Shown here: piece after piece, positions 695 to 48,272 of the stretch
Layout of the letters: every line of letters begins with the position of its first letter
Numbering within the stretch: position 1 is the stretch's first letter
DNA from: Achromobacter spanius
GTDB lineage: Bacteria > Pseudomonadota > Gammaproteobacteria > Burkholderiales > Burkholderiaceae_B
Length of the DNA stretch: 64,000 nucleotides
Direction: 5' to 3'
NCBI RefSeq assembly: GCF_002812705.1
Contig: NZ_CP025030.1
Location: 6,138,001-6,202,000, forward strand
Program-made: the position numbers and the translations under genes
The notes under the pieces: generated by a model
Told to the model about the DNA's origin: nothing
Database searches by the model: none
What the model saw: only the letters and a program-made list of their open reading frames with translations

Positions 695-3382
695 ATGCGC
701 GACGCGAGCCACCCCGCCCCCGGCCCTCACACCGGGTCTGACGCCGACCCCACGGAAACCGCCGAATGGCGCGACGCCTTGCAGTCGCTGCTTGAGGCCG
801 ATGGCGCCGAGCGCGCGGGCTATGTGCTGGACAGCGTGCTGGGGCACGCCGCGTCCCTGGGGCTGCGCGCCAACAGCCAGACGCGCACCGCCTACCTGAA
901 CACGATTCCCGCCAGCCAGGAGCCGCCTTTTCCTGGCAACCTGGCCGTGGAAGAACGCATCGCCCGCATCAACCGCTGGAACGCCTTGGCCATGGTGGTG
1001 CGGGCCAACCAGGCGCACGGCGAGCTGGGCGGCCACATCGCCAGCTATGCCTCCGCCGCCGACCTGTTTGAAGTGGGCTTCAACCACTTCTTCCGCGCGC
1101 AATCGGCCGATGGCCCCGGCGACCTGGTCTACATGCAGCCGCACTCCGCGCCCGGCGTGTACGCCCGCGCCTTTCTTGAAGGCTTCCTGGGCGAAGATGA
1201 CCTGGCGCATTTCCGCCAGGAAATCACGGCTACCGGGCGCGGCCTGCGCGGGCTGTCGTCCTACCCCCATCCGTGGTTGATGCCTGATTTCTGGCAGTTC
1301 CCGACGGGGTCCATGGGCATCGGCCCCATCAACGCGATTTATCAGGCGCGCTTCATGCGCTATCTGGAGCACCGCTCGCTGGCACCCGCCAGCGACCGCA
1401 AGGTCTGGGGTATTTTTGGCGACGGCGAAATGGACGAGCCGGAATCCATCGCCGCCCTGACGCTTGCCGCGCGCGAGAAGCTCGACAACCTGGTGTTCGT
1501 CGTCAACTGCAACCTGCAACGGCTGGACGGCCCGGTGCGCGGCAACGGCCGCATCATCGACGAACTGGAAACGCTGTACGCGGGCGCCGGCTGGAACGTG
1601 ATCAAGCTGGTGTGGGGCAGCGACTGGGACGCCCTGCTTGCCCGCGACGCCAATGGCGCGCTGGCCCGCGCCTTCTCCAATACCGTCGACGGCCAATTCC
1701 AGACCTTCGCCGCCAACGATGGTGCGTTCAATCGCGCGCATTTTTTCAATCAGCACCCCGAGCTGGCCGCGCTGGTGGCGGACTGGACCGACGAAGCCAT
1801 CGACCGCCTGCACCGAGGCGGCCACGACATGGTGAAGATCCATGCCGCCTATCACCGTGCGGCCAAGCACAGCGGCCAGCCCACCGTGATCCTGGCGCAA
1901 ACGAAAAAGGGCTTTGGCATGGGCGCGGCAGGCCAGGGCAAGATGACGACGCACCAGCAGAAAAAGCTGGACGACGAAGCCTTGCTGGCCTTTCGCGACC
2001 GCTTCGCCCTGCCGATCTCGGACGCCGACTGCCTGGCGCTGAAGTTCTACCGCCCCGCCGAAGACAGCGCCGAGCTGCGCCACCTGCAGGCACGTCGCGC
2101 CGCACTCGGCGGCCACATTCCCCGCCGCCGCACCGAAGCCCCGCGCCTTACCCCGCCCCCCGCCGAACACTGGGCGCGCTTCGCGCTGACGGCCAGCGGC
2201 AAGGAAATGTCGTCGACCATGGCCATCGTGCGCATGCTTACCGCGCTGCTCAAGGACGGCACCGTGGGCCCGCGCATTGTGCCCATCGTGGCCGACGAGG
2301 CCCGCACCTTCGGCATGGCCAACCTGTTCCGCCAGATCGGTATCTATTCGGCGCAAGGCCAGTTGTATGAACCCGAGGACATCGGCTCGGTGCTGTACTA
2401 CCGGGAAGCGCGCGACGGCCAGATTCTGGAGGAAGGCATTACCGAAGCCGGCGCGATTTCATCGTGGACGGCGGCCGGCACCAGCTATTCGGTCAATGGC
2501 CTGCCGATGCTGCCGTTCTATATCTATTACTCGATGTTCGGCTTCCAACGCATCGGCGACCTGATCTGGGCCGCCGCCGACCAGCGCACCCGTGGCTTTT
2601 TGATCGGCGCCACCTCCGGGCGCACGACGTTGGGCGGCGAAGGGCTGCAACACCAGGACGGCTCCAGCCACATCATGGCCGCCGCCGTGCCGAACTGCCG
2701 CGCTTACGATCCGGCCTATGCCTACGAGGTTGCCGTCATCGTCGAACACGGCATGCGCCGCATGCTGGACGAGCAGCATGACGAATTCTTCTACCTGACC
2801 GTCACCAACGAAAACCTGGCGCAGCCCGACATGCCCGCCGACGACGGCGTCAGCGCAGGCATCCTGCGCGGCATGTACCGCCTGCGGCCTGCGCGCAAGC
2901 AGGCAGACGTCCGCTTGCTGGGCGCGGGCCCCATGCTGCGCGAGGCCGAAATCGCCGCCGAGCGGCTGCGCGAGCAATACGGCGTGGACGCCGAGGTCTG
3001 GAGCGTCACCAGCTTTTCCGAACTGGCCCGCGACGGCCGCGAAGCCGAACGCGCCCGCGTGCTGGGCCTGGACACCGCCAGCGACGCGGACTGGGTTCGC
3101 ACCTGCCTGGGCGACAGCGACGCCCCGGTCATCGCCGCCACCGACTACGTGCGCGCCGTGCCCGAACAGATCCGCGCCTGGGTCCCGGCCCCGTATCGCA
3201 CCTTGGGCACCGATGGCTTTGGCCGCAGCGACACCCGCGCGCAACTGCGCGACTTCTTCGAAGTCAGCGCCGACTGGATCACGCTCTACGCGCTGGACAG
3301 CCTGGGCCGACAAACAGACGCCGACAAGCTGCGCAACAAGCTGAACACCCGCACCCGCAAAACCCCACCGTGGAACTCGTAG
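695..3382 (+). CDS. Homodimeric pyruvate dehydrogenase E1-type 2-oxoacid dehydrogenase (AceE/MdeB family)
   Basis: This 895-residue protein has the full length of the homodimeric, thiamine-diphosphate-dependent E1 family that decarboxylates 2-oxoacids. The ThDP motif is visible as GDGEMDEPES near residue 242, followed about 28 residues later by NCNLQR. FNHFFRA, SPGVYARAFLEG and GLSSYPHP also match AceE. The start is ATG 695 with AGGAG upstream. No E2 (aceF) or E3 (lpd) gene lies beside it, unlike the main pyruvate dehydrogenase operon. It is therefore probably a second E1 paralogue of the kind annotated as MdeB. Whether it prefers pyruvate or 2-oxobutyrate/2-oxoglutarate cannot be read from sequence. 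Its TAG stop lies inside a dispersed palindromic repeat. Confidence 0.9.
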   Translation: MRDASHPAPGPHTGSDADPTETAEWRDALQSLLEADGAERAGYVLDSVLGHAASLGLRANSQTRTAYLNTIPASQEPPFPGNLAVEERIARINRWNALAMVVRANQAHGELGGHIASYASAADLFEVGFNHFFRAQSADGPGDLVYMQPHSAPGVYARAFLEGFLGEDDLAHFRQEITATGRGLRGLSSYPHPWLMPDFWQFPTGSMGIGPINAIYQARFMRYLEHRSLAPASDRKVWGIFGDGEMDEPESIAALTLAAREKLDNLVFVVNCNLQRLDGPVRGNGRIIDELETLYAGAGWNVIKLVWGSDWDALLARDANGALARAFSNTVDGQFQTFAANDGAFNRAHFFNQHPELAALVADWTDEAIDRLHRGGHDMVKIHAAYHRAAKHSGQPTVILAQTKKGFGMGAAGQGKMTTHQQKKLDDEALLAFRDRFALPISDADCLALKFYRPAEDSAELRHLQARRAALGGHIPRRRTEAPRLTPPPAEHWARFALTASGKEMSSTMAIVRMLTALLKDGTVGPRIVPIVADEARTFGMANLFRQIGIYSAQGQLYEPEDIGSVLYYREARDGQILEEGITEAGAISSWTAAGTSYSVNGLPMLPFYIYYSMFGFQRIGDLIWAAADQRTRGFLIGATSGRTTLGGEGLQHQDGSSHIMAAAVPNCRAYDPAYAYEVAVIVEHGMRRMLDEQHDEFFYLTVTNENLAQPDMPADDGVSAGILRGMYRLRPARKQADVRLLGAGPMLREAEIAAERLREQYGVDAEVWSVTSFSELARDGREAERARVLGLDTASDADWVRTCLGDSDAPVIAATDYVRAVPEQIRAWVPAPYRTLGTDGFGRSDTRAQLRDFFEVSADWITLYALDSLGRQTDADKLRNKLNTRTRKTPPWNS

Positions 3383-3616
3383 GATGGGTGGAGCGCGATA
3401 GACCGGTGAAAAAAACCCCACTATCAATCGCGCGAAACCCATCAAGCACCGGTGGAATTCTTGAACAGAGCAGCCACAGCTTTCTTGCCTATTGCGTCTG
3501 TCGCTCAGCCACAGCTTTCTTGCCTATTGCGTCTGTCGCTCAGCCGCTGCTTGATGGGTTTCGCGCGGTCCGCACCGTGTTCTTGTGCCGGCCATCGCGC
3601 GCTACACCCATCCTAC
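3379..3616. repeat. Nested palindromic element A (GTAGGATGGGTG ... CACCCATCCTAC)
   Basis: The outer ends GTAGGATGGGTG (3379-3390) and CACCCATCCTAC (3605-3616) are perfect inverted repeats. A second, inner pair is a perfect 20-bp inverted repeat at 3429-3448 and 3548-3567 (CGCGCGAAACCCATCAAGCA and its complement). The core carries a short tandem duplication. The TAG at 3380-3382 inside the left end is the stop codon of the upstream dehydrogenase. Related copies lie at 20176, 34268, 34540, 36032 and, as a half copy, 48201. Confidence 0.85.
3471..3540. repeat. 35-bp tandem duplication in core of element A
   Basis: Two identical 35-bp units occupy 3471-3505 and 3506-3540, each containing CTTTCTTGCCTATTGCGTCT. 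They lie between the inner arms of palindromic element A. Confidence 0.9.
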
Positions 3617-3905
3617 GATTCGATGGGCGCCGATCACCCGACCGATGGGAACCGATCGCCCATCCCCCGGGAGCCGATCATCTGACCGATGGAGAACCCG
3701 TCGCCACATAAACATAATCCGACCCGTTCTTGATCAAACGCGCCTGATCGCTGCACTGCAACAACCAAGCGTCCGCGCTTTCTGGTGAAATACGGGTGTT
3801 CCCTAAGCATTTCGCAAAGAAACCGGCGGGCCGCGAGCCCGCCGCTTGTCATTCGTTTTTCATCCCGTTTTCTTTCTCAGTTAGTGCCTCAGAGGCCCCG
3901 ATCCC
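3617..3905 (+). promoter_or_regulatory. maeB upstream region with imperfect direct repeats and a leader hairpin
   Basis: This stretch holds two imperfect direct repeats of about 29 bp (3625-3653 and 3669-3698, sharing the words GCCGATCA and GACCGATGG). A GC-rich hairpin follows, with arms GGCGGGC (3825-3831) and GCCCGCC (3837-3843), about 60 bp before the maeB start. The hairpin precedes a short T run (3855-3859), so it could be a weak terminator or attenuator. No clear promoter hexamers were found. Confidence 0.4.
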
Positions 3906-6203
3906 ATGGACGAAACTCTTACCAAAATGGCGTTGGATTACCACGCCTATCCCACTCCCGGCAAAATCTCGGTCGTCCCGACCAAGACCTTGGCCAACCA
4001 GGACGACCTGTCCTTGGCCTACTCCCCCGGCGTGGCGGCCGCTTGCATGGCCATCTTCGACCAGGGCGATGACGCCGCGTCCAAGTACACCTCGCGCGGC
4101 AACCTGGTGGGCGTGATCACCAACGGCACCGCCGTCCTGGGCCTGGGCAACATCGGGCCGCTGGCCGCCAAGCCGGTCATGGAAGGCAAGGGCTGCCTGT
4201 TCAAGAAGTTTGCCGGCATCGACGTGTTCGACATCGAACTGGCCGAGAACGACCCCGACAAGCTGGTCGACATCATCGCGGCGCTGGAGCCCACGCTGGG
4301 CGGCGTCAACCTGGAAGACATCAAGGCGCCCGAGTGCTTCTACATTGAAAAGAAGCTGCGCGAGCGCATGAAGATCCCCGTCTTCCATGACGACCAGCAC
4401 GGCACCGCCATCATTTCGTCGGCCGCCATCCTGAATGGCCTGAAGGTCGTGAACAAGGACATCGGCTCGGTCAAGCTGGCTTGCTCGGGCGCCGGCGCTG
4501 CCGCCATCGCCTGCCTGGACCTGCTGGTTCACCTGGGCGTCAAACGCGAGAACATCTTCGTGGTGGACTCGCGCGGCGTCATCTGGGATGGCCGCGATGA
4601 AAACATGGAAGCCAACAAGAAGCGCTACGCGCAAAAGACCGACGCGCGCACGCTGGCCGATGTCGTCAACGGCGCCGACGTGTTCCTGGGCTGCTCGACC
4701 TCTGGCGTGCTGACGGGCGACATGGTCAAGACCATGGCCGACCGCCCGCTGATCCTGGCGCTGGCCAACCCCGAACCGGAAATCCGCCCCGAAGTGGCCA
4801 AGGCCGCCCGCCCGGATTGCATCATTGCCACCGGCCGTTCGGACTACCCGAACCAGGTCAACAACGTGCTGTGCTTCCCCTTCATCTTCCGCGGCGCCAT
4901 GGATGCCGGCGCCTCGCGCATCACGGAAGAAATGAAGCTGGCTTGCGTGAAAGCCATCGCCGAACTGGCGCAAGCCGAGCAGAACGATGAAGTGGCCCGC
5001 GCCTACGCCGGCCAGGAACTGTCGTTCGGCCCCGACTACATCATCCCCAAGCCCTTCGACCCGCGCCTGATCTTCCAGATTGCGCCGGCCGTGGCCCAAG
5101 CCGCTGCTGATTCCGGCGTGGCTGCCCGCCCCATCGAAGACATCGAAGCCTATCGCCAGAAGCTGATGGGCTTTGTGTACCACTCGGGCCAACTGATGCG
5201 TCCGCTGTTCGCCCAGGCCAAGAAGGCGCCCAAGCGCGTCATCTATGCCGACGGCGAAGACGAGCGCGTGCTGCGCGCCGTGCAGACCGTGGTTGACGAA
5301 AAGCTGGCCCGCCCGATTCTGATCGGCCGTCCGTCGGTTATCGAAATGCGCATCACCAAGGCCGGCCTGCGCCTGGTGGCCGGCGAGCATTTCGAAATCG
5401 TGGATCCGGAAGACGACGAGCGCTTCAACGAAACCTGGACCGCGTACTACCAGTTGAAGGGCCGCGAAGGCGTGACGCCGGCCATCGCCAAGGCGATGAT
5501 CCGCAAGCACAACACGCTGATCGGCGCGATGCTGCTGCGTCGCGGCGACGCCGACGCGCTGCTGTGCGGCGTGGCCAGCAAGTACGACAACCAGCTCAAG
5601 TATGTCGACGAAATCATCGGCAAGAAGGAAGGCCAGACCTACGCCGCCCTGAACGTGCTGATGCTGCCTGACCAGACGCTGTTCGTCACCGACACCCACG
5701 TCAACGAAAATCCGACGTCGGAAGAAGTGGCCAACATCACCATCCAGGCCGCCGATGAAATGCTGCGCTTTGGCGTGGTGCCCAAGATTGCCCTGCTGTC
5801 GCATTCGAACTTCGGCAGCCGCGTCACGGAATCGTCGAAGAAAATGGCCGCCGCCAGCAAGCTGGTGCAGGAACGCGCGCCCGACCTGGAAGTGGACGGC
5901 GAAATGCACGCCGACGCCGCCTTGTCGGAAAAGATCCGTGTGCTGGCCTACCCGGACAGCACGCTCAAGGGTCGCGCCAACCTGCTGGTCATGCCGAACC
6001 TGGACACCGGCAACATCACGTACAACATGCTGAAGATGACGGGCAGCAATGGCGTCGCGATGGGTCCCATCCTGCTGGGCGCCGCGCGCCCCGTGCACAT
6101 CCTGACGACCAGCGCCACCGTGCGCCGCATCATCAACATGACGGCCCTGGCCGTGGTGGATGCACAGCAGGAAGCCGCCGACGCCGCCAAGAAGCGCCGT
6201 TGA
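3906..6203 (+). CDS. maeB: NADP-dependent malic enzyme with C-terminal phosphotransacetylase-like domain
   Basis: This 765-residue protein converts malate to pyruvate and CO2 with reduction of NADP, in the cytoplasm. The first roughly 430 residues are the malic enzyme part ([16 protein letters not shown] near the start, then SPGVAAAC and FHDDQHGTA). A Rossmann region around [17 protein letters not shown] binds the cofactor. The last roughly 330 residues (from [16 protein letters not shown]) form the phosphotransacetylase-like regulatory domain found in the large MaeB type. Length agrees with this family. The start is ATG 3906; translation begins [11 protein letters not shown] strong terminator follows. 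Confidence 0.95.
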
Positions 6204-6224
6204 TCACGCGCTTGTCTTGACGCC

Positions 6225-6252
6225 AAAGGCGCCCTTCGGGGCGCCTTTTTTC
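6225..6252 (+). terminator. Rho-independent terminator of maeB
   Basis: Arms AAGGCGCCC and GGGCGCCTT close around a TTCG tetraloop and are followed by a run of T residues, 22 bp after the maeB stop codon. Confidence 0.9.
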
Positions 6253-6357
6253 ATGGCGCATTTTCTTGCCGCCGAAGCCGTATTTTCCTGTCGATTGATC
6301 GACGCCGCTCCACAGGCCGGTGGTAAAACCATGCTTGACCTTTTTCCTGGAGACGAC

Positions 6358-6810
6358 ATGTTGGCCGATGCCCTATACGCCTGGTTCCACTACCTGGCGA
6401 TCTTTGTAATGGTGGTGGTGCTGACCGCCGAAGCCGTGCTGCTGCGCCCCGACCTGAGCGCCAGTGGCGTGAAGCGCCTGGTGATCTACGACCGCCTGTA
6501 TGGCGTCAGCGCCGTGCTGGTGCTGATCACCGGGCTATTGCGACTGACCCAGGGCGCGAAGGGCGCGGCCTTCTATATGAGCAGCCCGTGGTTTCACGCC
6601 AAGATCACGCTGTTCGTCATCATCGCGCTCTGTTCGATCCCGCCCACGCTGGCCGTCTTCCGCTGGGCAAAGCAGGCGCGTCAGCAAGCCGGTTTCGTAC
6701 CCACGTTGCCCGAGATCAAGCGCGTGCGCCGCTGGGTGATGATCGAAGCGCACCTGTTCATTTTCCTGCCGCTCTTCGCAGTACTGATGGCACGCCACAT
6801 CAGCGTGTAG
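6358..6810 (+). CDS. DUF2214 family integral membrane protein
   Basis: This protein of 150 residues has about four hydrophobic segments: WFHYLAIFVMVVVLTAEAVL, a segment around SAVLVLITGLLRL, one around ITLFVIIALCSIPPTLAVF, and a C-terminal LFIFLPLFAVLMA. It resembles the DUF2214 family, whose function is unknown. I chose ATG 6358 because GGAGA precedes it and the first membrane helix starts directly after; the frame is open further upstream but passes through the maeB terminator. It is convergent with the LysR gene. Confidence 0.75.
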   Translation: MLADALYAWFHYLAIFVMVVVLTAEAVLLRPDLSASGVKRLVIYDRLYGVSAVLVLITGLLRLTQGAKGAAFYMSSPWFHAKITLFVIIALCSIPPTLAVFRWAKQARQQAGFVPTLPEIKRVRRWVMIEAHLFIFLPLFAVLMARHISV

Positions 6811-6816
6811 CGCCAG

Positions 6817-6835
6817 CGCACCGTTCAACGGTGCT
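6817..6835. terminator. Small hairpin between convergent genes
   Basis: Arms GCACCG (6818-6823) and CGGTGC (6829-6834) flank a 5-nt loop between the converging DUF2214 and LysR genes. There is no T run, so a role as terminator is only suggested by position. Confidence 0.35.
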
Positions 6836-7751
6836 AGCCACCGTTCAGCACGGGCGCCTGCCAGCCTTGCGCCAGGCATTCAATCAGATAGTCGACGAAT
6901 GCCCTGGCCCTGGCCGGCAGCAAGCGCGTTTCGGTCACGACATGCACGGGAAACGGTCCCACCGTCCAGTCGGGCAACACGCGGCGCAAAGCGCCTGATT
7001 GCACAAGCTCGGTCTGGTCTCCGCCCAGCGCGGCGATACCCGCGCCCAACATCGCCAAGCGCCGCGCCATGCCGGCTTCATTGACCGAAAACCGGCTACC
7101 GGGCACAACGCTGATCTGCTCGCTCCCGCGAGCCAGCGGCCAACGGGTGGGTGCGCCATTGGCCTGGGCGCGAAACCCGATGCATTCGTGCGCCGACAAT
7201 TCCCCGGGATGCTCGGGCGCCCCATGCGCCGCCAGATAGGCCTCGGACGCGTATAGATGAACGTTCAGGGCGCCCAGGCAACGCGCGATGCGCGACGAAT
7301 CCGGCAGTTCACCAATCTTGATCGTCAGGTCGCACGGGTCGGCCACGCGATCCACATGTTCCAGGCTCGCCAGGTTCACGTGGAAAGCCACATCCGGATA
7401 CCGACGCGAGAACCTCAGGAATATATCGGCCATGACATCGGTGGCAAAGGCGGCCGGCATGTTCACGCGCAGCAGCCCGGACGGTGTCGCGGTCAAGGCT
7501 TGCAGTTCTTCATGCGCCACCTCGGCCTCTTGCACGATGCGCAGGCAGCGCTCCAGATACAGTTCGCCCGCGCCAGTCAGTTCAACCTTGCGGGTGCTGC
7601 GGTTCAGCAGGCTCAGGCCTACCGAACGCTCCAATTGCGCTACGCGGCGCGACAGCGTTGATTTCGGCAGCCCCAGCACGGCCGCCGCGCGGCTGAAGCT
7701 GCGGGCCTTGGCTACCTCTGCAAACAGCTCCATGCTGTGCAGGCTTCTCAC
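6834..7751 (-). CDS. LysR family transcriptional regulator
   Basis: The N-terminus carries the LysR winged helix-turn-helix (MELFAEVAKARSFSRAAAVL then PKSTLSRRVAQLE), followed by the usual inducer-binding domain of about 200 residues. These proteins bind DNA as tetramers and respond to small molecules. Start choice is open: GTG 7751 gives the usual short lead into the helix; GTG 7772, GTG 7814 and ATG 7733 are alternatives and none has a strong ribosome-binding site. It lies downstream of the unknown membrane protein gene on the same strand, so its target is unclear. Confidence 0.85.
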   Translation of the reverse strand: MRSLHSMELFAEVAKARSFSRAAAVLGLPKSTLSRRVAQLERSVGLSLLNRSTRKVELTGAGELYLERCLRIVQEAEVAHEELQALTATPSGLLRVNMPAAFATDVMADIFLRFSRRYPDVAFHVNLASLEHVDRVADPCDLTIKIGELPDSSRIARCLGALNVHLYASEAYLAAHGAPEHPGELSAHECIGFRAQANGAPTRWPLARGSEQISVVPGSRFSVNEAGMARRLAMLGAGIAALGGDQTELVQSGALRRVLPDWTVGPFPVHVVTETRLLPARARAFVDYLIECLAQGWQAPVLNGG

Positions 7752-18730: not shown

Positions 18731-20179
18731 ATGTCCGCCCCAATCTCAAACGTACGTCCCGATCCCGATCAGGTCCTGGTCGATATCGCGGACTACGTTC
18801 TTAACTACGAGATCAAGAGCAGCCTGGCGTACGAGACTGCACGCAACTGCCTGATCGACACGCTGGGCTGCGGCCTGGAAGCGCTGGAATACCCGGCGTG
18901 CAAGAAGCTGCTGGGGCCGATCGTGCCTGGCACCGTAGTGCCCCACGGCGCCAAGGTGCCCGGCACGTCGTTCCAGCTTGACCCCGTGCAGGCCGCGTTC
19001 AACATCGGCACGATGATCCGATGGCTGGATTTCAACGACACCTGGCTGGCCGCCGAATGGGGCCACCCGTCCGACAATCTGGGCGGCATCCTGGCCACGG
19101 CCGATTGGCTGTCGCGCACGGCTGTCACTGCCGGCAAGCCCCCGCTGACCATGCGTGACGTGCTGACCAGCATGATCAAGGCGCATGAAATCCAGGGTTG
19201 CATCGCGCTGGAAAATTCCTTCAACAAGGTCGGCCTGGACCACGTGGTGCTGGTCAAGGTGGCGTCCACCGCCGTGGTGGCGCAGATGCTGGGCCTGGAC
19301 CGCGATGAAGTCATCAACGCCGTGTCACTGGCCTGGGTCGACGGCCAAAGCCTGCGCACGTATCGCCACGCGCCGAACACCGGCAGCCGCAAAAGCTGGG
19401 CCGCGGGCGACGCCACCAGTCGCGCCGTGCGCCTGGCACTGATCGCGAAAACCGGAGAAATGGGCTACCCGTCGGTGCTTAGCGCCAAGACCTGGGGCTT
19501 TTACGACGTGCTCTTCAAGGGGCAGCCGTTCAAGTTCCAGCGGCCGTATGGCAGCTACGTGATGGAGAACGTACTGTTCAAGATCTCGTTCCCGGCGGAA
19601 TTCCATTCGCAGACCGCCGTGGAATGCGCCATGAACATCCACGCGAAGCTCAACGCGCTGGGCAAAAGCGCGGACGACATCAAGGCCATCACGATCCGCA
19701 CGCATGAAGCGTGCATCCGCATCATCGACAAGAAGGGCCCGCTGAACAACCCCGCCGACCGCGACCACTGCATCCAGTACATGGTGGCGGTGCCCGTGCT
19801 GTTCGGCCGTTTGACCGCCGGCGACTACGAGGATGACGTCGCGCGCGACCCGCGCATCGACATCCTGCGCGACAAGATCGTCTGCGTGGAAGACCCCGCC
19901 TACACCCGCGACTACCACGACCCGGACAAGCGCTCGATCGCCAACGCGCTGACGGTGGAATTCAACGACGGCTCAAAGCTGGACGAAATCGTCTGCGAAT
20001 ACCCCATCGGCCACAAGCGCCGCCGCGCCGACGGCATCCCGTTGCTGGAAGCCAAGTTCCGCACCAATCTGGCCCGCATGTTCGCGGCCAAGCAGCAACG
20101 CCGCATCCTGGACGTGTCTCTGGACCAAAAAGCGCTGGAAGCCATGCCGGTCCACGAATACGTGGACCTGTACACGTAG
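18731..20179 (+). CDS. prpD: 2-methylcitrate dehydratase (MmgE/PrpD family)
   Basis: This 482-residue protein dehydrates 2-methylcitrate to 2-methyl-cis-aconitate. The family signature is visible in [20 protein letters not shown] near residue 100. Its presence after prpBC without acnD/prpF indicates the cofactor-independent PrpD version of the pathway. The start is ATG 18731 with AGGAGGG upstream. The stop TAG at 20177-20179 lies within the left end of palindromic element B. Confidence 0.94.
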
Positions 20180-20419
20180 GATGGGTGAAGCGCGCGCGAA
20201 CGCTTGCAATGGCGCAATTGCCGAACGCGCGCAACCCATGCGGAACCGGCGCGGGAATCTGTAGGAGGTTCTTGCGGAGGAAGCCTAGTGGGGTTCTTGC
20301 GGCGGCCGCCTAGTCGGGTTCTTGCGGCGGCCCCCTTGTCGTTCACCGTTGCTTGATGGGTTGCGCGCGTTCGGCATTCAGGTTCTTGCGGCGGACTGGG
20401 CGCGCTGCACCCATCCTAC
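20176..20419. repeat. Nested palindromic element B
   Basis: The outer arms are GTAGGATGGGTG (20176-20187) and CACCCATCCTAC (20408-20419). The inner arms are a perfect 21-bp inverted repeat at 20219-20239 and 20356-20376, containing CGCGCGCAACCCAT and its complement. The core holds 25-bp tandem repeats. The TAG at 20177-20179 is the prpD stop codon. Confidence 0.85.
20266..20340. repeat. 25-bp tandem repeat, three units, in core of element B
   Basis: Units at 20266-20290, 20291-20315 and 20316-20340 share GGTTCTTGCGG followed by a variable GGN-rich half ending in CTAGTG, CTAGTC or CTTGTC. Confidence 0.85.
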
Positions 20420-33273: not shown

Positions 33274-34263
33274 ATGATCCCTTCCGCCCGATCCCCCACC
33301 TCGCTTGCCTGGCGCCTGGCGCTTGTCGCCATCATCGTGCGCCTGGTCTACGCCGCGCTGGTGCAAAGCTACACGATGCTGGGCCTGCCCCAGTCCGAAC
33401 AGATGCGCGAGATGTATGGCCAGCCTCAGTATCTGATGCCGATGCTGACCAACATCTTGGCGTCCGCCGTCATGGTCGCGCTGACGGTATGGGGCACGAT
33501 GCACGGCTGGCTGCGCCGCCACGACACCACTGCGGTGGACGAACCGCGCAAGCTGTTCGGCACCTTCATCGCCTTGCAGTTGATCTATACCCTGATGGTT
33601 TCGGCCGCCACCGCCTACCTGCATAACGTCGGAATGCTGTTCATCATGGCGCAACGCGACGCGCTGACCGAGCGGTTCGGCATCGACCTGGCCGGGCAGT
33701 TCCTGGCCATGGGCGTGCTCTTCCGGATCGTGGCCATCGTGTTGGAAATCCTTGGCATGTTCCTGGCGGTGCGCATCGCCGCCTGGACAGTGCAACGCAC
33801 GGGGCCCGCGGGCGCGCCCGCCTACGATCGGCGCCACGCGGCCTGGAACACCGGCCTGACCGTGCTGGCCTGGCAGTTGACCGTATCGATCGCCCTGGGC
33901 GGCTACCTGCAAATGATGTTTCTGAATGCCGACTGGCCGTCTTTCGTGTTGGGATACCTGGTCCTGCCCGCGCTGCTGTTGGTGCTGTGCACGCTGGTTT
34001 GCCTGAACATCCTGCCGCGCCAACTGGGCGCAGTGGGGCCGGGGCGGGCTGTGGTCCACGGCACGATTGTGTTCTGGCTGGCGCAGGCGGCAGGCATCGG
34101 CATCGCCTACCTGGCCATCCAGTCGATGAGCTGGAGCCAACTGATACGCGCGGCGCAATCCATCGGCGCGGCCGTGGCGGCACTGGCAATCTATGCCGCG
34201 CTGTTGGCCTTGGGATGCATCCTCGGCAAGCTGGCGCTGTATCGCCGCGCCCACGCCACGTAG
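33274..34263 (+). CDS. Unrecognised polytopic membrane protein
   Basis: I do not recognise this protein of about 329 residues. It has about eight hydrophobic segments spaced through its length (for example SLAWRLALVAIIVRLVYAAL, NILASAVMVALTVWG, LVLPALLLVLCTLVCLNIL, AAVAALAIYAALLALGCILG). A signal-like run precedes the loop QSEQMREMYGQPQYLMPM. I chose ATG 33274; a GTG at 33214 is also in frame and neither has a clear ribosome-binding site. Palindromic element C1 begins 5 bp after its stop. Confidence 0.65.
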   Translation: MIPSARSPTSLAWRLALVAIIVRLVYAALVQSYTMLGLPQSEQMREMYGQPQYLMPMLTNILASAVMVALTVWGTMHGWLRRHDTTAVDEPRKLFGTFIALQLIYTLMVSAATAYLHNVGMLFIMAQRDALTERFGIDLAGQFLAMGVLFRIVAIVLEILGMFLAVRIAAWTVQRTGPAGAPAYDRRHAAWNTGLTVLAWQLTVSIALGGYLQMMFLNADWPSFVLGYLVLPALLLVLCTLVCLNILPRQLGAVGPGRAVVHGTIVFWLAQAAGIGIAYLAIQSMSWSQLIRAAQSIGAAVAALAIYAALLALGCILGKLALYRRAHAT

Positions 34264-34267
34264 GCTC

Positions 34268-34518
34268 GTAGGATGGGTGAAGCGCGCACGGCTGGGGACC
34301 AGTGAATTGCCACATGCCGCGCGCAACCCATCGGGCGGTGCGGCGTTCTTGCGGTGGGACGGTGCGGCTTTCTTGCGATGAGGCGGTGCGGCGTTCTTGC
34401 GATGAGGCGGTGCGACTTTCTTGCCTTGGGCCGCTGAAGTGCCGCCGTTGCTTGATGGGTTGCGCGCGTTGGGCTGTTTCTTTCTTGCCATGGGCCTGCC
34501 GCGCTACACCCATCCTAC
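34268..34518. repeat. Nested palindromic element C1 (first of three in tandem)
   Basis: Outer arms GTAGGATGGGTG (34268-34279) and CACCCATCCTAC (34507-34518); inner arms GCGCGCAACCCATC (about 34319-34332) and GATGGGTTGCGCGC (34454-34467). It starts five bases after the stop codon of the upstream membrane protein gene. The core contains a 24-bp tandem repeat. Confidence 0.85.
34337..34432. repeat. 24-bp tandem repeat, four units, in core of element C1
   Basis: Units at 34337-34360, 34361-34384, 34385-34408 and 34409-34432 follow the pattern GGTGCGGCGTTCTTGCGATG with a variable end. Units 2 and 3 differ at one base. The neighbouring copies C2 and C3 have only one such unit. Confidence 0.9.
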
Positions 34519-34664
34519 GGGCGCACGCAACGTCCGATCGTAGGATGGGTGAAGCGCGCGCGGCTGGGGGCCAGTGAATTGCCGCATGCCGCGCGTAACC
34601 CATCGGGCGATGCGACGTTCTTGCAATGGGCCGCTGAAGTGCCGCCGTTGCTTGATGGGTTGCG

Positions 34665-34670: not shown

Positions 34671-34720
34671 TGTATGGCCCGGGGACATGGGTAACGGGTG
34701 TTCGGGGACATAGGTAACAC
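34671..34720 (+). repeat. Left inverted end of the insertion sequence
   Basis: Begins TGTATGGCCCGGGGACATGG and carries a second related word, TGTTCGGGGACATAGGTAAC, 29 bp in. Confidence 0.88.
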
Positions 34721-34758
34721 TTCTAGCATCACGGTATGGTCGTTTTTAGGAGCGAGCG

Positions 34759-35892
34759 ATGCCGTGGAAGGAGTCAAGCCTTATGTCCTGCCGAATGGAG
34801 TTCGTTCAGCTTGCCCTGCAACCGGGCAGCAATGTGCGGGAGCTTTGCCGGCGTTTCGATATCAGCGCCAAGACCGCATACAAGTGGTTGGGCCGCTACG
34901 AGCAGAACGGCCAGGCTGGGTTGCAAGATCTGTCTCGCAGACCAGGCAATAGTCCTGGGCGCACGTGTGAGCAAATCGAAGCGCAGGTGATCGACCTGCA
35001 CAAGCGTTACCCGTACTGGGGGCCTCGCAAGTTGCGGGCGCTGCTTGGGCCGACTACGGCGCCCGCGCCCAGTACCATCTCGGCAATTTTGCGACGACAT
35101 GGCTATCGGGTCCAAGGCGAGGACTCGAACGTCGGGCTGGCGAACCAGCGCTTTGAGCATGAGGCGCCAAACCTGTTGTGGCAGATGGACTTCAAGGGGC
35201 ACTTTGCCCTGACAGACGCGCGTCAGGGACGGTGCCATCCGCTGACGCTATTGGACGATCACTCACGCTACGCCCTGTGCATCCAGGCTTGTGGCGATGA
35301 GCGCAGCAAAACTGTGCAGCAGCACCTGAAGGCCGTATTTCGCCGTTACGGATTGCCCGAACGGATCACCGCGGACAACGGCCCATCCTGGGCATCGGTG
35401 CGCGGCCTGGGGCTGACAGGCCTGGAGGTTTGGCTCATGCGGCTGGGTGTGCGTATCAGCCACAGTCGCCCTCATCATCCGCAAACCCAAGGCAAGCTAG
35501 AACGCCTGCATCGAACGCTCAAGCGCGAGTTGATCCAGGCCCGGGGGTTTAGCAGTCTGCTGGACTGCCAGCAAGCCATGGATCAGTGGCGTGAACAGTA
35601 CAACCACGTCCGGCCCCACCAGGCGTTGGGGCAGATGCCGCCCCTGTCGAGATATAGACCTAGCCCTCGTCGCTATCCTGCCTCGTTGCCTCCGATCGAA
35701 TACGAGCCGGGCGATCGAGTGCTCAAGGTCAGGACCAAAGGGCAGATCATTGTGAACGGACGCGTCGTCTTCGTCGGAGAGGGAATGGCGGGTCTGCCTG
35801 TCGCGGTCAGACCCTCCTCGCAAGACGGCGTGCTTGATGTCGTCTTCCTGTACAAAATTGTTCAACAGATCGACCTCAGAGCACCCCAATAG
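34759..35892 (+). CDS. IS481-family DDE transposase
   Basis: This 377-residue protein has an N-terminal helix-turn-helix (GSNVRELCRRFDISAKTAYK) and an rve integrase core. The three catalytic acids are visible: Asp in NLLWQMDFKGHF, Asp in RITADNGPSW, and Glu in QTQGKLERLHRTLKREL. The C-terminal integrase-associated region contains YNHVRPHQALGQMPP. The frame is intact, with no shift, and the start ATG 34759 follows GAGCGAG. Confidence 0.93.
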   Translation: MPWKESSLMSCRMEFVQLALQPGSNVRELCRRFDISAKTAYKWLGRYEQNGQAGLQDLSRRPGNSPGRTCEQIEAQVIDLHKRYPYWGPRKLRALLGPTTAPAPSTISAILRRHGYRVQGEDSNVGLANQRFEHEAPNLLWQMDFKGHFALTDARQGRCHPLTLLDDHSRYALCIQACGDERSKTVQQHLKAVFRRYGLPERITADNGPSWASVRGLGLTGLEVWLMRLGVRISHSRPHHPQTQGKLERLHRTLKRELIQARGFSSLLDCQQAMDQWREQYNHVRPHQALGQMPPLSRYRPSPRRYPASLPPIEYEPGDRVLKVRTKGQIIVNGRVVFVGEGMAGLPVAVRPSSQDGVLDVVFLYKIVQQIDLRAPQ

Positions 35893-35905
35893 GATAAAAA
35901 CCTAT

Positions 35906-35955
35906 GTGTTACCCATGTCCCCGAACATGTGTCACCCATGTCCCCGGTCCATACA
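35906..35955 (-). repeat. Right inverted end of the insertion sequence
   Basis: Read on the minus strand from 35955 it begins TGTATGGACCGGGGACATGG, matching the left end at 44 of 50 positions. Confidence 0.88.
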
Positions 35956-35961: not shown

Positions 35962-36031
35962 GGGCTGTTTCTTTCTTGCCATGGGCCTGGCGCGCTTCAC
36001 CCATCCTACCGGGTGCGCGCAACGTCCGATC

Positions 36032-36210
36032 GTAGGATGGGTGAAGCGCGCGCGGCTGGGGGCCAGTGAATTGCCGCATGCCGCGCGCAACCCATCGGGC
36101 GATGCGGTGTTCTTGCAATGGGCCGTTGACGCGCGACCGTTGCTTGATGGGTTGCGCGCGGTTCACGCCTGTTTGTTTCTGGCGTTCCTGCCGCGCTTCA
36201 CCCATCCTAC
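36032..36210. repeat. Nested palindromic element C3 (third in tandem)
   Basis: Outer arms GTAGGATGGGTG (36032-36043) and CACCCATCCTAC (36199-36210). It is separated from C2 by a 22-bp spacer ending CAACGTCCGATC, which also separates C1 from C2. The stop codon of the convergent peptidase gene lies 11 bp beyond its right end. Confidence 0.85.
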
Positions 36211-41047: not shown

Positions 41048-41054
41048 GGCCGCC

Positions 41055-41975: not shown

Positions 41976-42032
41976 TGAAATTCCTGCAACATCGGCGGGG
42001 ACACCGCGCCCCCGCCGAATGTGGCCTTACAA

Positions 42033-42046
42033 GGGCCCGAAGGCCC
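42033..42046. repeat. Short hairpin between gsiB and gsiC
   Basis: GGGCC-CGAA-GGCCC, without a T run, follows the binding-protein gene. Such hairpins often protect the 3' end of binding-protein mRNA so that it is made in excess of the permeases. Confidence 0.4.
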
Positions 42047-42064
42047 CGAGAGTGACTGCTAGGT

Positions 42065-43609
42065 TTACTGCTTCAGGTCGATGTCGCCGAACCAGAACGA
42101 GGTGTCCGGTTCCACGTACACGCCCGACAGGTTCTTCGACTTCACATACAGGTTGTTCTGGGTCACCAGGAAGGCCCACGGGGCGTCCTTCCAGATGGTT
42201 TCCTGAACGTTCTTGTAGATTTCCGTCTTCTTCGCGCGATCGGTCGTGGCCAGGGCTTCTTGAACGCCGGCGTCAACCGTCTTGTTCGAGTAGTACGACA
42301 CGTTGTTCAGCACCGGCGGGAAAGCGGCGGTGGTCAGCAACGGACGCAGGCCCCAGTCGGCTTCACCGGTCGAGGACGACCAGCCGGCGTAGTACATGCG
42401 AACCTTGGCGTCTTCCGGCTTTTGCACTTGCTGCACACGCTGACCCGATTCCAGCACTTCAACCTGCACCTTGATGCCGACTTGCGCCAGTTGCTGCTGC
42501 AGGAACTGAACCACCTTCACCGAGGTGCCGTCGTTATAGGCGGACCACAGCGTGCTTTCGAAGCCGTTGGGGTAGCCGGCTTCGGCCAGCAGGGCCTTGG
42601 CCTTCTTCAGGTCATACGGCCACGGGCCGGTCTTGTGGGCAAAGTCCACGCCCTTGGGCACCACGCCGTCAACGACGGTGGCATAGCCCGAGAAAGCGAC
42701 CTTGGCCAGGGCTTCCTTGTTGATGGCGTAGTTGATGGCTTCGCGCACCTTGACGTTGTCGAACGGCTTTTGCTGCGTGTTCATCGACAGGTAGCGGGCC
42801 ATGATCGAGTTCTGGTGATCGACCACGTCCAGCTTGTCGTTCTTCTTCAGCACGGCGGCTTGTTCGAACGGCACCGGGAAAGCGAACTGCGCTTCGCCCG
42901 TCTGCACCACGGCGGCGCGGGTGTTGTTGTCGGTCACGGTACGGAAGGTCAGCGTGTCGACCTTCGGGTAGCCCTTCTTCCAGTAGCCGTCGAACTTCTT
43001 GACCTTCAGGTATTCAGCCGGCTTCCATTCGACGAATTCGAACGGGCCGGTGCCCACCGGGTGGAAACCGATTTCCTTGCCGTACTTGGCCAGGGCGGCC
43101 GGCGAGATCATCATGGCGGCCGGGTGGGCCAGCGCGTTGATGAAGGCCGAGAACGGCTTCTTCAACGTGATCTTGATGGTCATCGGGTCAACCACTTCGG
43201 TCTTGTCGATGACGCTGAACTGGATGTAGCGCGACAGGCGGTTGTCCGGATTGGCCGGACGATCGAAGTTGATCTTGACCGCTTCGGCGTTGAAGTCGGT
43301 GCCGTCGTGGAACTTCACGCCGGGACGCAGCTTGAACGTGTAGACCAGGCCGTCTTCGCTGACGCTGTAGTCGGTGGCCAGCACCTTCTGGATCTTCAGG
43401 TCTTTGTCGAACTCGAACAGGCCTTCGTAGTAGGCCTTGCCGGCAGCCTGGTTCAGGGTGCTGTTGGTGTTGTACGGATCAAGCGTTTCCAGTGCGATGG
43501 AGACGGCAAACGTCACGTCCTTGGACGCATGCGCCAACGGCGAAGTGAGCACGCCGAAGGCCACCGCGGCGGCGGCCATCAGCTTGGTGGGGCGCAAAAC
43601 TTTCATCAT
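42065..43609 (-). CDS. gsiB: Periplasmic peptide/glutathione-binding protein (GsiB-like)
   Basis: This 514-residue solute-binding protein (family 5) has a signal peptide with hydrophobic core LMAAAAVAFGVLTSPLAHA and likely cleavage before SKDVTF. Family features are visible in KLRPGVKFHDGTDFNAEAVK and FHPVGTGPFEFVEWK. The start ATG 43609 has AGGAG at good spacing. It delivers substrate to the GsiCD permease. Confidence 0.9.
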   Translation of the reverse strand: MMKVLRPTKLMAAAAVAFGVLTSPLAHASKDVTFAVSIALETLDPYNTNSTLNQAAGKAYYEGLFEFDKDLKIQKVLATDYSVSEDGLVYTFKLRPGVKFHDGTDFNAEAVKINFDRPANPDNRLSRYIQFSVIDKTEVVDPMTIKITLKKPFSAFINALAHPAAMMISPAALAKYGKEIGFHPVGTGPFEFVEWKPAEYLKVKKFDGYWKKGYPKVDTLTFRTVTDNNTRAAVVQTGEAQFAFPVPFEQAAVLKKNDKLDVVDHQNSIMARYLSMNTQQKPFDNVKVREAINYAINKEALAKVAFSGYATVVDGVVPKGVDFAHKTGPWPYDLKKAKALLAEAGYPNGFESTLWSAYNDGTSVKVVQFLQQQLAQVGIKVQVEVLESGQRVQQVQKPEDAKVRMYYAGWSSSTGEADWGLRPLLTTAAFPPVLNNVSYYSNKTVDAGVQEALATTDRAKKTEIYKNVQETIWKDAPWAFLVTQNNLYVKSKNLSGVYVEPDTSFWFGDIDLKQ

Positions 43610-43675
43610 TGCAACTCCTGGTTCCAAATTGGAATTAGGGGGTTTGGTGGAAGAAAAACGAGTACGACAACGGAA

Positions 43676-45562
<1,887 letters not shown>

Positions 45563-45601
45563 CTTTATTAATCCCCAAAATCAAAACAGAACCCGCCACG
45601 C

Positions 45602-46582
45602 TTATCGGTAGATAGCAGTGACCGGCTTTTCGCCAACGCGGGCGTAACCCCGATACATGCCTTCCGTGTTGAACGGCAAGGCCACATTGCCCTGGGCGTC
45701 AACGGCCACCAGGCCGCCCTTGCCGCCGATGGTGGGCAGTTTTTCCATTACGACGCGGTCCGCGGCTTCTTGCAGCGACGCCCCGCAATACTCCATCTGG
45801 GCCGCAACGTCATACGCGGCAACCATGCGGATGAACATCTCGCCGGTACCCGTGGTGGATACGGCGCAAGTCTTGTTGCTGGCGTAGGTGCCCGCGCCGA
45901 TCATGGGCGCGTCGCCGACGCGGCCGACCTGCTTGTTGGTGATGCCGCCGGTTGACGTGGCCGCGGCCAGATTGCCCTCTGCATCCACGGCCACCGCGCC
46001 CACCGTGCCGAACTTCTTGTCGGCGTCCAGCGGGTCGGCCGGCGCGGGCTGGCCGCGCGCAACCATGGCTTGACCATCGTGGTCCAGCACGGCGGCGTCC
46101 GGCGTTTCGCGCTGCACACGCAGCAATTGTTCGCGGCGAGCCTCGGTCGAGAAGTACGACGGGTCAACGATTTCCAGGCCTTCGGCCTTGGCGAAGGCTT
46201 CGGCGCCCTCGCCCACGAAGAACACGTGCTTGCTGTTTTCCATGACACGGCGCGCCAAGAACACCGGGTTGCGCACGCAGTTCACGTTGGCGATGGCGCC
46301 CGAACGCAGCGTGGCGCCGTCCATGATGGAGGCGTCCAATTCATGCGTGGCCGCGCTGGTGAACACGGCGCCGTGGCCGGCGTTGAACAAGGGGCAGTCT
46401 TCCAGCAGGCGCACGGCTTCGGTCACGGCGTCCAGGGCGCTGCCGCCACGGGCCAGCACGGCCTGGCCGGCCGTCAGAATGGACTCCAGGGCGGCCAGGT
46501 ATTCCTGTTCTTTCTCGGGCGACATGGCCGCGCGGGACATCGCGCCGGCGCCACCGTGAATGGCAATCACGGGTTGAATCAT
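45602..46582 (-). CDS. iaaA: Isoaspartyl peptidase / L-asparaginase (Ntn hydrolase)
   Basis: This 326-residue type III asparaginase splits beta-aspartyl dipeptides. The precursor cleaves itself before Thr193 in KKFGTVGAVAVD, making that threonine the nucleophile. IHGGAGAM at the start and STTGTGEMFIR later are family marks. Its ATG overlaps the regulator's TGA by 4 bp (ATGA), so the two are translationally coupled. In E. coli the same gene precedes gsiABCD. Confidence 0.93.
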   Translation of the reverse strand: MIQPVIAIHGGAGAMSRAAMSPEKEQEYLAALESILTAGQAVLARGGSALDAVTEAVRLLEDCPLFNAGHGAVFTSAATHELDASIMDGATLRSGAIANVNCVRNPVFLARRVMENSKHVFFVGEGAEAFAKAEGLEIVDPSYFSTEARREQLLRVQRETPDAAVLDHDGQAMVARGQPAPADPLDADKKFGTVGAVAVDAEGNLAAATSTGGITNKQVGRVGDAPMIGAGTYASNKTCAVSTTGTGEMFIRMVAAYDVAAQMEYCGASLQEAADRVVMEKLPTIGGKGGLVAVDAQGNVALPFNTEGMYRGYARVGEKPVTAIYR

Positions 46583-47454
46583 CGTTTACCTACTCCATGG
46601 ATAAGCCACGGCATCACGGACTGGGTCACCCCAGCGGCTGCCGCAACGGAATTCTCGGCCCGATAGGCCACCGCGGCGGACAGGGCTTCGATCAAGCCCA
46701 GCGCGGCGGTTTCGGAATTTGGGATCAACTGGCGCGCCGAATACGCATACAACACCACGGACGCGGTGGGCGCCAGGGGCGACGTGGGCTTGTCGGTCAG
46801 CACCAGTACCGGCACGCCGGCTTGCTTGGCGGCGGCGGCCAGCGTCACGGTGTCGGCCAGATAGCGGGGGAAACCAATGGCAATGACCAGGTCCTTGGCG
46901 GTCATGCGCGACATCTGCCGCGCCGCGTGCGACACGCCGCCCGGCCCGGCCAGCGATTCGACGGAACGCAGGTGCATGCACAGGCCGCGCTGCAGCAGGC
47001 CGGCCAGGAAACCGCTGGCGCCGAAGCCGATGATGAAGACGCGCTCGGCGGCCAGGATGGATTGCACCGCCTGTTCACAGGCGCCCGAGTCCAGCGCCTG
47101 CAAATTGCGCTGGGCGTTGCGGATGTCTTCTTCAAGCGTGGCGGCAAAGATCTGCACGGCGCTGGCGGAATGCGCCAATTCGGTGCGCAGCTTTTCCACG
47201 GGTTCCAGCGCGGCTTCGAATCCGCGCGCCAGCTCGGCACGAAACTGCGGGTAGCCCGGCAAGTCCAGGGCACGCGCAAAGCGGTTCGCCGTCGCCACCG
47301 ACACCCCGACCGCCACGGCGAATTCGTCGACGGTCATGGTGGCCACGCGGAACTGATGTGCCAGCACGTACTCGGCCATCTTGTGCTGAGTCCGGCTCAG
47401 CGCGGGCTGAGCCCGGGCGATCCGATCAGCGATCGACAGTACGGCCTTGTTCAT
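46579..47454 (-). CDS. MurR/RpiR family transcriptional regulator of the peptide operon
   Basis: This 291-residue protein has an RpiR helix-turn-helix (TVDEFAVAVGVSVATANRFA) and a SIS sugar-isomerase-like domain (ERVFIIGFGASGFLAGLLQ to the LVIAIGFPRY region). RpiR proteins usually sense phosphosugars; a member in front of peptidase genes would fit amino sugar or muropeptide signals. I start at ATG 47454 (MNKAVLS); the ribosome-binding site is weak. It overlaps iaaA by 4 bp and is the first gene of the operon. Confidence 0.88.
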   Translation of the reverse strand: MNKAVLSIADRIARAQPALSRTQHKMAEYVLAHQFRVATMTVDEFAVAVGVSVATANRFARALDLPGYPQFRAELARGFEAALEPVEKLRTELAHSASAVQIFAATLEEDIRNAQRNLQALDSGACEQAVQSILAAERVFIIGFGASGFLAGLLQRGLCMHLRSVESLAGPGGVSHAARQMSRMTAKDLVIAIGFPRYLADTVTLAAAAKQAGVPVLVLTDKPTSPLAPTASVVLYAYSARQLIPNSETAALGLIEALSAAVAYRAENSVAAAAGVTQSVMPWLIHGVGKR

Positions 47455-47483
47455 CTTTTTGGGGTGCGTCTTAGCGGGTGTTG

Positions 47484-47501
47484 GTGTAAATCTGTTTACA
47501 C
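47484..47501. promoter_or_regulatory. Palindrome GTGTAAA-N4-TTTACAC, candidate RpiR operator
   Basis: A perfect 7-bp inverted repeat with a 4-bp spacer lies 30 bp upstream of the RpiR gene start. It would suit autoregulation and control of the whole downstream operon. A second small palindrome, GGGTATACCC, lies near 47539-47548. Confidence 0.6.
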
Positions 47502-47635
47502 GCAAATTTTAAATAAGAAAATTCCTTTTCATACTCAGGGTATACCCGTGAATTTATGTAACGGTGGACGAAAAGAAACGGGGCCGGTTTGAGGTACGCT
47601 ATCGGCGCCTCTTTTTCTTCCCTTGGAATGCCGCA

Positions 47636-48088
47636 ATGCCCGATTGGATCTGCAAGCCCCACCAGGAACTGACCGTTGCCGAGATCTACTCGATTCTCCA
47701 GCTACGCACGGAAGTGTTTGTCGTTGAGCAGGAATGCATCTTTCAGGACATCGACGGGAAGGATCTGGTCGGGCAGACCTCGCACTTGATGGCTTGGCAG
47801 GGAGATCAGTTGGCTGCGTATTGCCGCATTCTTGATCCGTCACTGAATAAGAACGGTGATATTGAGATTGGCCGGGTCATCAGCGCGCCCTGGACGCGCG
47901 GCCAGGGGCTGGGGCATGAGTTGATTCGCCATGCGATGGCGGAAGTGCGCCGGCGCTGGCCGGGTCGTGCGATGTACCTGGGGGCGCAGGCCCGGCTGCG
48001 GGCTTACTACGGCGGGCACGGGTTTGTGGAAGTGACCGAGGAATATATCGAGGACGGGATTCCGCACGTGGGGATGCGGTTGGGGTGA
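47636..48088 (+). CDS. ElaA-like GNAT N-acetyltransferase
   Basis: This 150-residue protein matches the ElaA group of GNAT acetyltransferases: LRTEVFVVEQECIFQDIDGKD near the start, the acetyl-CoA site RVISAPWTRGQGLGHELIRH, and LRAYYGGHGFVEVTEEYIEDG near the end. The acceptor is unknown. The start ATG 47636 (MPDWICKP) matches the family's start; the frame is open further upstream. It is convergent with scoB. Confidence 0.88.
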   Translation: MPDWICKPHQELTVAEIYSILQLRTEVFVVEQECIFQDIDGKDLVGQTSHLMAWQGDQLAAYCRILDPSLNKNGDIEIGRVISAPWTRGQGLGHELIRHAMAEVRRRWPGRAMYLGAQARLRAYYGGHGFVEVTEEYIEDGIPHVGMRLG

Positions 48089-48109
48089 CGCGGGGGCTGC
48101 TGCAGGGTG

Positions 48110-48137
48110 AAAAAAAACGTTCCCTTGGGAGCGTTTT
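48110..48137. terminator. Bidirectional terminator between the GNAT gene and scoB
   Basis: An 11-bp stem (AAAACGTTCCC with GGGAGCGTTTT, one G-T pair) has a 2-nt loop, an A run before it and T residues after, so it can act on both strands. Confidence 0.7.
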
Positions 48138-48200
48138 GCAGGTACGCGCCCACTGGGAGCGCTTGTTGGTTTTTGCGGGGCTAGACGGGTTGCTTGTTGC

Positions 48201-48272
48201 GTTGCTTGATGGGTTGCGCGCGATCGGCACTTTTGTTTTTGCCTTGAGGTTCGCGCGCTTCACCCATCCTAC
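48201..48272. repeat. Half palindromic element D
   Basis: Only the right half of the element family is present: GTTGCTTGATGGGTTGCGCG (48201-48220) and the outer end CACCCATCCTAC (48261-48272), which fold into a hairpin. Read on the minus strand, the TAG at 48271-48269 in the outer end is the scoB stop codon. Confidence 0.8.

Follow-up and report, generated by a model that had tools for sequence, protein, structure and literature searches.

We examine here a short palindromic repeat in a window of 64,000 nucleotides of the Achromobacter spanius genome (contig NZ_CP025030.1, positions 6,138,001 to 6,202,000 of the forward strand), within which a 2-oxoacid dehydrogenase E1 gene, prpD and scoB (gene names assigned by NCBIfam) all stop at a TAG contained in the first bases of the repeat, at exactly the positions that an earlier reading of the sequence alone (the sequence-only reading) had given. 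Our principal conclusion, to which we assign a probability of roughly two in three, is that the repeat belongs to a family of REPs (repetitive extragenic palindromes) associated with a RAYT (REP-associated tyrosine transposase), that its boundary tetranucleotide GTAG often coincides with stop codons, and that it is no dedicated termination device.

The mechanism that we propose is as follows. The REP has most likely been spread by a RAYT encoded in the same genome, an enzyme of the HUH type that would act on single-stranded DNA in the manner of TnpA-REP. The outer tetranucleotide GTAG includes the amber codon, and a REP settling at a gene end would often take over a pre-existing GTA(A/G) stop, in which case the encoded protein is unaltered and the gene ends in TAG, whether or not it did so before. 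In fewer cases, an open reading frame (ORF) that has lost its own stop would continue into the REP and terminate at its TAG. The overlap with stops would then be mainly a by-product of where the GTAG of a REP can lie.

Anatomy of the Repeat

Across the 6.43 Mb of the genome, the start motif GTAGGATGGGT has 309 exact copies, of which 153 are forward and 156 reverse; its reversed control has 5. The window holds 11 exact copies of GTAGGATGGG. All further counts of sites come from 1.229 Mb of stretches, equal to 19% of the genome, which carry 268 of the 309 motif sites. The closing arm ACCCATC lies at most 90 nt downstream in 246 of these 268, and 242 of the resulting units measure 63-66 nt. Read inward, the unit of about 65 nt consists of GTAG, a 7-bp stem (GATGGGT/ACCCATC), a small internal loop, a 5-bp stem (GCGCG/CGCGC) and a variable loop. 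The lower 7-bp stem is present by construction of the collection, and its pairing is no test; the upper 5-bp stem, for which pairing was not a criterion of collection, is paired in 215 or 216 of 216 unique units. When sites were located by the stem and GCGCG alone, with no tag required, 257 of the 260 carried GTAG directly before the stem, and the other 3 carried GCAG there. The units thus form the imperfect palindrome with an irregular zone that is expected of a REP, and one of them, folded as DNA, gave a z score of -2.3. Rfam returned no match for the repeat at its gathering scores.

REPs occur singly, as at scoB, or as head-to-head pairs joined by a linker, as at E1 and prpD. Such a pair is a BIME (bacterial interspersed mosaic element) with the termini GTAGGATGGGT...ACCCATCCTAC and a TA at each end. 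The element is therefore a GTAG-tagged REP of about 65 nt, present singly or in BIME pairs. The BIME termini could also be those of a miniature inverted-repeat transposable element (MITE) that inserts at TA and duplicates it in the style of IS630/Tc1, and both TAA and TAG stops do contain a TA. Yet single REPs that lack the other end exist (scoB), so that a copy need not have both terminal inverted repeats; a G precedes the TA in 260 of 260 sites, which goes beyond a TA rule; the unit length is nearly fixed; and a matching RAYT is present. On this comparison, which did not include a search for DDE transposases having ends of this type, we regard a MITE as very improbable.

Two side observations concern the arrangement of the copies. 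The base preceding GTAG is a C in 189 of the 260 sites and may mark the insertion joint. REPs or BIMEs also form tandem arrays of near-constant spacing on contig C1, at 736434-737071 (about 105 nt), 768987-769461 (about 115 nt) and 2760106-2760810 (about 231 nt).

The Associated Transposase

A RAYT is encoded at C1:2810381-2810851 (NF047646, E 1.9e-50), with REPs of the same genome just upstream of it at 2811032-2811297. It is 75% identical to the RAYT of a related genome, G016, which adjoins an array with seven GTAGGATGGGT motifs; that protein matches Pfam weakly and is identified as a RAYT by NF047646 (E 1.9e-55) and by its relationship to TnpA-REP (4er8, E 1.3e-35). At one point the transposase had seemed to be missing, as PF01797 (Y1_Tnp) matched nothing in the genome. 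This negative was a failure of sensitivity, since the profile also passed over the genome's own RAYT, which the relative's protein located when used as the query. The translation contains DHLHMIW, which we take to be an HUH-like motif, and cleavage and transfer of single-stranded REP DNA would be predicted from it.

With the G016 protein as query, matches of at least 64% identity were found in the home genome (G000) and in G008, G016, G020, G023, G036, G038 and G039, the copy in G008 having one internal TGA; matches of 24-30% identity, in eight genomes both rich and poor in REPs, were excluded from the count. A close RAYT is thus present in 8 of the 9 genomes of the genus that are REP-rich (at least 59 motif copies) and in none of the 34 that are REP-poor (at most 7), a strong co-occurrence (Fisher 6e-8).

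An Excess of Stops at the Repeat, and Its Proper Null

Gene ends were taken from a purpose-built codon-phase gene finder (1073 calls), not from the annotation, and for each gene the closest same-strand site within 300 nt was scored; for 5 of the 268 sites the stretch contained no gene end on the same strand. Among the 116 gene ends with such a site, 27 stop at the TAG of the repeat. No more than 3 fall at any other single offset between -60 and +60, and by closest site none lies deeper inside the repeat. The 32 offsets from -31 to 0 together hold 21 gene ends, and against that local density the spike of 27 has a Poisson P of 6e-34. The sequence-only reading had proposed a genome-wide list of offsets as the check on its claim, and in this list, which covers 268 of the 309 sites, the excess over nearby random positions is evident.

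The called genes exclude 267 of the 268 sites. The exception, counted by site, is a weak call of 72 codons (score 12.2) that reads into the repeat in another frame and stops 20 nt inside it. The phases of the stops are accordingly 27:0:0 for the TAG frame and the two others, or 27:0:1 if the weak call is included; 27 of 27 has a p of 1.3e-13 when one third is expected in each phase. In either of the other two phases, an ORF that entered the repeat at these 27 loci would be extended by a median of 38 or 24 codons, and such entries are nearly absent.

A random base is nevertheless not the proper null, which is the GTAG tetramer near gene ends. REP ends are distributed at the stop, up to 31 nt after it and 32-300 nt after it in the proportions 26:20:66, and noncoding GTAG tetramers outside REPs in the proportions 66:30:105; no difference was detected (chi-square p 0.20; Fisher on the first two bins, p 0.19), with the reservation that the two counts are unlike, the closest REP per gene being set beside all tetramers. 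A noncoding tetramer ending in TAG near a gene end is often itself the stop, and the excess therefore needs no stop preference beyond that of GTAG. The earlier statement that chance placement would not put the repeat at stops holds against random positions but not against random GTAG tetramers. We have dropped the idea of a dedicated stop-seeking element, as the placement of REP ends between stops and spacers resembles that of plain tetramers.

The same comparison bears on whether a hairpin directly at the stop has been retained by selection for tuning the translation or the mRNA decay of the upstream gene. Work cited in the portions of PMC12306157 consulted reports reduced translation where a REP lies fewer than 16 nt from the stop, and the REP lies on the stop or within 15 nt of it in 41 of the 116 gene ends. 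But the share of REPs at stops is not above that of GTAG tetramers, so that no additional selection for the stop position is needed, and the fused and unfused states described below vary between close species; we consider such selection unlikely. No T-run of the kind that an intrinsic terminator has was seen by eye after the REP hairpins of E1, prpD and scoB. A terminator scan, confined to loops of 3-8 nt and blind to this hairpin, gave one weak match, in the linker of the prpD BIME, at chance level. The third suggestion of the sequence-only reading, a 3' untranslated processing or termination element, is not shown by these data, though it may hold.

The coincidence extends to distant RAYTs. 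In the best 80 of 575 RAYT neighborhoods, where genes were taken as the longest ORFs of at least 150 codons, a recurrent GTAG palindrome was found in 63, against 0 of 200 random windows of G035, a relative without the motif. Among the 233 recurrent palindromes of these neighborhoods, 7, from 7 records, lie at the TAG offset (+1); the other offsets within 60 hold at most 4 each, and one ORF ends beyond +1. The stop habit is therefore not confined to the genus, as is also the case in PMC3733652.

Many Stops May Be Older Than the Repeat

The coding frame can indicate where a gene ended before a REP arrived. With one weakly scored gene (2067551; loci are named by their genome coordinates) set aside from the 27 stop-overlap genes, 26 were compared with two REP-rich relatives, G038 and G036, and with three relatives that lack exact copies of the motif, G035, G018 and G007, for the last of which 18 of the 26 loci counted. 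In 21 of the 26 genes, the position of the stop codon is shared with one or more of the three motif-free relatives. These same-codon stops comprise TAA 10, TAG 8 and TGA 1 in G035 (19/26), TAG 10, TAA 5 and TGA 4 in G018 (19/26), and TAA 5, TAG 3 and TGA 3 in G007 (11/18). TGA is therefore rare among the element genes in G035 (1/19) by comparison with the same-codon control genes there (147/253; p 4e-6). The stop lies in a GTAA or GTAG context in 17 of 26 genes in G035, 17 of 26 in G018 and 8 of 18 in G007, the corresponding figure for gene ends of the home genome being 198 of 983 (p 7e-7, 7e-7 and 0.017, respectively). The stop context is identical across all three motif-free relatives in five genes, one with GTAG and four with GTAA. 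The five genes that have no same-codon counterpart in these relatives are 1, 2 or 16 codons longer there, or in one case (2092604) 5 codons shorter. We read this as evidence that many of the stops would predate the repeat.

The three genes of the window illustrate the range of outcomes. At E1 (6141379), for which the motif-free relatives compared were G035 and G018, both stop at the same codon with a TAG of their own. At prpD (6158176), where the repeat is common to the home genome, G038 and G036, the motif-free relatives G035, G018 and G007 all end one codon later (LYVI, as against LYT here), and the C-terminus has changed. At scoB (6186272), one of the four GTAA genes, the stop of all three motif-free relatives is a GTAA one codon further on. 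G036, where scoB lacks the repeat, has identical last residues followed by CTG TAA, and the home genome and G038 have CTG TAG and the repeat. The comparison of orthologous C-termini that the sequence-only reading had suggested thus gives a mixed answer, a stop codon unmoved by comparison with at least one relative in 21 of 26 genes and an altered C-terminus at prpD. Its proposal that the element inserts at stop codons gains from those 21 genes and from the GTA(A/G) excess in the relatives, but not in the form of a strict GTAG target. That form was not kept, as GTAA is frequent in the relatives and two non-stop empty sites have neither tetranucleotide. What we would tentatively retain, as a possibility that is on balance doubtful, is a RAYT-driven insertion that lands on an existing GTA(A/G), for which GTAA and GTAG stops would be preferred harmless sites; a TAA would be rewritten as TAG with the protein intact and the hairpin placed directly behind the stop.

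Several observations weigh against our general interpretation, and are gathered here. The likeness of REP ends to GTAG tetramers is the non-detection of a difference between counts that are not of the same kind. The GTA(A/G) excess is weaker in G007. In G035 TAA is the stop of 10 of the 19 same-codon element genes but of only 4 of 42 same-codon controls (genes that end in TAG in the home genome and have no repeat; p 5e-4); the older stop is therefore often GTAA and not GTAG, and the difference from TAA to TAG accompanies the repeat. At the two best-aligned empty sites away from stops, most others being too diverged, the motif-free relatives have a G but no GTA at the junction: site 1348203 reads GACA in G018 and GTGA in G035, and site 359475 reads GAAT in G035. 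Decayed REPs are present in register at 2 of the 26 loci in G018 (10.1 and 7.9 bits), and a crude score of similarity after the stop is raised in G035 (p 0.002) and G018 (p 4e-5) though not in G007 (p 0.47), from which it follows that some of the apparently older stops of the relatives may be remains of REPs. Finally, no RAYT was found in G014, an assembly of about 60 contigs, despite its 132 motif copies.

At the best-aligned empty site, 359475, no target duplication is clear, and the other sites are too diverged. With a permissive threshold of 4 bits, the in-register profile gave 0 of 26 loci in G035, 0 of 18 in G007 and 0 of 272 controls, and 390 kb of G035 contained nothing REP-like above the level of shuffled or reversed sequence. 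That decayed REPs are the source of all the same-codon stops is consequently a proposal that the profile does not support. The two decayed loci of G018, which has neither the exact motif nor a close RAYT, are at genes 45849 (L176) and 691031 (L240); perhaps this genome lost the transposase and its REPs then decayed. The RAYT of G014 could have been lost recently or could fall in a gap of the assembly.

Fused and Unfused States in Close Relatives

At four loci the REP is fused to the gene in some species and separated from it in others. At 827535 the home genome and G038 are fused, and G036 has a TAA and a spacer; at 45849 the home genome and G036 are fused, and G038 has the TAA and spacer; at 521407 G036 is fused, and the home genome and G038 are not. 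At 6354199 the home genome is unfused, but in G038 its stop has been lost and the ORF continues for 9 codons to the TAG of the REP. The stop codon at this last locus is shared by G035, G018 and the home genome, and it is the only one of the four with a clear order of events. The earlier suggestion that the element captures the 3' ends of genes is thus borne out at this one locus, with three further loci where the species differ in state. We also sought in the relatives 15 of the 21 gene ends that have a REP at -31 to 0. The spacer between stop and REP varies widely among three close species (home genome, G038 and G036, in that order), being -16, -37 and -8 at 2380849 and -30, -44 and -8 at 4336460; the search gave no placement for locus 1276610 in G035 and G018 or for 6354199 in G036, and G036 lacks a REP motif near two of the loci.

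These differences are what would be expected if a REP landed anywhere downstream of a gene and the spacer were then eroded, with small deletions (some of them between GTA repeats) or the loss of the stop fusing the ORF to it. All in-phase fusions would end at the single TAG and create the spike, and out-of-phase fusions would be removed by selection. Both the four loci of mixed state and the unequal orthologous spacers speak for such erosion. By itself, however, it does not lead one to expect that 21 of 26 genes would share their stop codon with a motif-free relative, or that GTA(A/G) would be in excess in the relatives, and at 521407 and 45849 the fused state may, to judge from the motif-free relatives, be the older one. 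We regard erosion as a credible rival, though clearly less likely than not to be the explanation, and continue to prefer the view that the GTAG boundary of a RAYT-spread REP often comes to coincide with a stop already in place.

Copies within the Window

In window coordinates, the first REP (3379..3443, plus strand, 65 nt) supplies with its TAG at 3380-3382 the stop of the E1 gene (695-3382), and an inverted REP (3553..3616, minus strand) closes the BIME 3379-3616. At prpD (18731-20179) the TAG at 20177-20179 belongs to a REP with an altered last stem base (20176..20240, plus strand), and an inverted REP (20355..20419, minus strand) closes the BIME 20176-20419. The scoB gene (48269-48898) ends at the TAG 48271-48269 of a single REP (48208..48272, minus strand). 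At two other places the element lies near a stop without containing it, as had also been remarked from the sequence: the REP at 34268..34332 (plus strand) begins 4 nt past the TAG (34261-34263) that ends the gene 33274-34263, and an inverted start motif at 36201..36210 (minus strand) lies at a distance of 11 nt from 36224-36222, the TAG stop of a minus-strand M24 peptidase gene. Between these two is a compound array with an inverted start motif at 34509..34518 (minus strand), a start motif at 34540..34549 (plus strand) whose ensuing BIME is interrupted by an insertion sequence (IS) of the IS481 family, an inverted start motif beyond the IS at 36000..36009 (minus strand) and a start motif at 36032..36041 (plus strand).

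The IS481-family element (34671-35955; transposase 34759-35892) sits inside a REP unit, has inverted ends of 50 nt, and is flanked on both sides by the 6-bp CGCGTT (by eye). An identical IS end lies within a REP at 827.5 kb of the genome, and IS ends matching at 98-99% occur in a REP array of G036. The recurrence of these ends in REPs suggests that the IS may favor them; REPs as targets of ISs have been the subject of a paper (PMC1525189).

Comparison with Known Systems

The element is of a known kind, and its habit at stops has been published; the family itself was not found described in the open papers searched, including with the query TAGGATGGGT, a statement that extends to open papers only. 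To what is known we add a better null, the identification of the RAYT, and a comparison indicating that many of the stops predate the repeat. In REPINs, paired REPs form a mobile unit akin to the BIMEs seen here, whereas the overlap with stops described above holds for single REPs as well.

The closest precedent is that of Di Nocera, De Gregorio and Rocco (2013, PMC3733652), who in the sections drawn on report that the termini of GTAG-tagged REPs often supply the TAG stop of flanking ORFs. Our repeat resembles those elements in its GTAG tag, its palindrome, its intergenic position, its dimers and its location near the 3' ends of genes, but it is 65 nt long with a loop of about 30 nt, whereas the abstract of that paper gives 20-40 bp. 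The age of the stop relative to the REP, which we have examined, is not put to the test in the sections drawn on. The adjacency of RAYT and REPs and the conserved GTAG are shared with the REPtrons and RAYTs of Nunvar (2010, PMC2817692) and Corneloup (2021, PMC8266576), as far as the portions consulted describe them. Our protein is related to the Escherichia coli TnpA-REP (4er8), and the stem with an irregular zone recalls group 2 of PMC8266576, a likeness of stem form and not a placement of the RAYT by a tree. The parts of that paper drawn on report cleavage at a CT or CA beside the REP, and leave as an open question how REPs reach new sites. It is here that the stop codons may serve as a ruler: the class of REPs that overlap stops makes the choice of target answerable through empty sites at the level of strains, and this genus, in which 8 of the 9 REP-rich genomes and none of the 34 REP-poor ones encode the RAYT, is a ready system in which to pursue it. 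With the E. coli REPs near stops treated by RepRanger (PMC12306157, in the part consulted), our elements share a position within 15 nt of the stop; they differ from them in that the REP here contains the stop itself.

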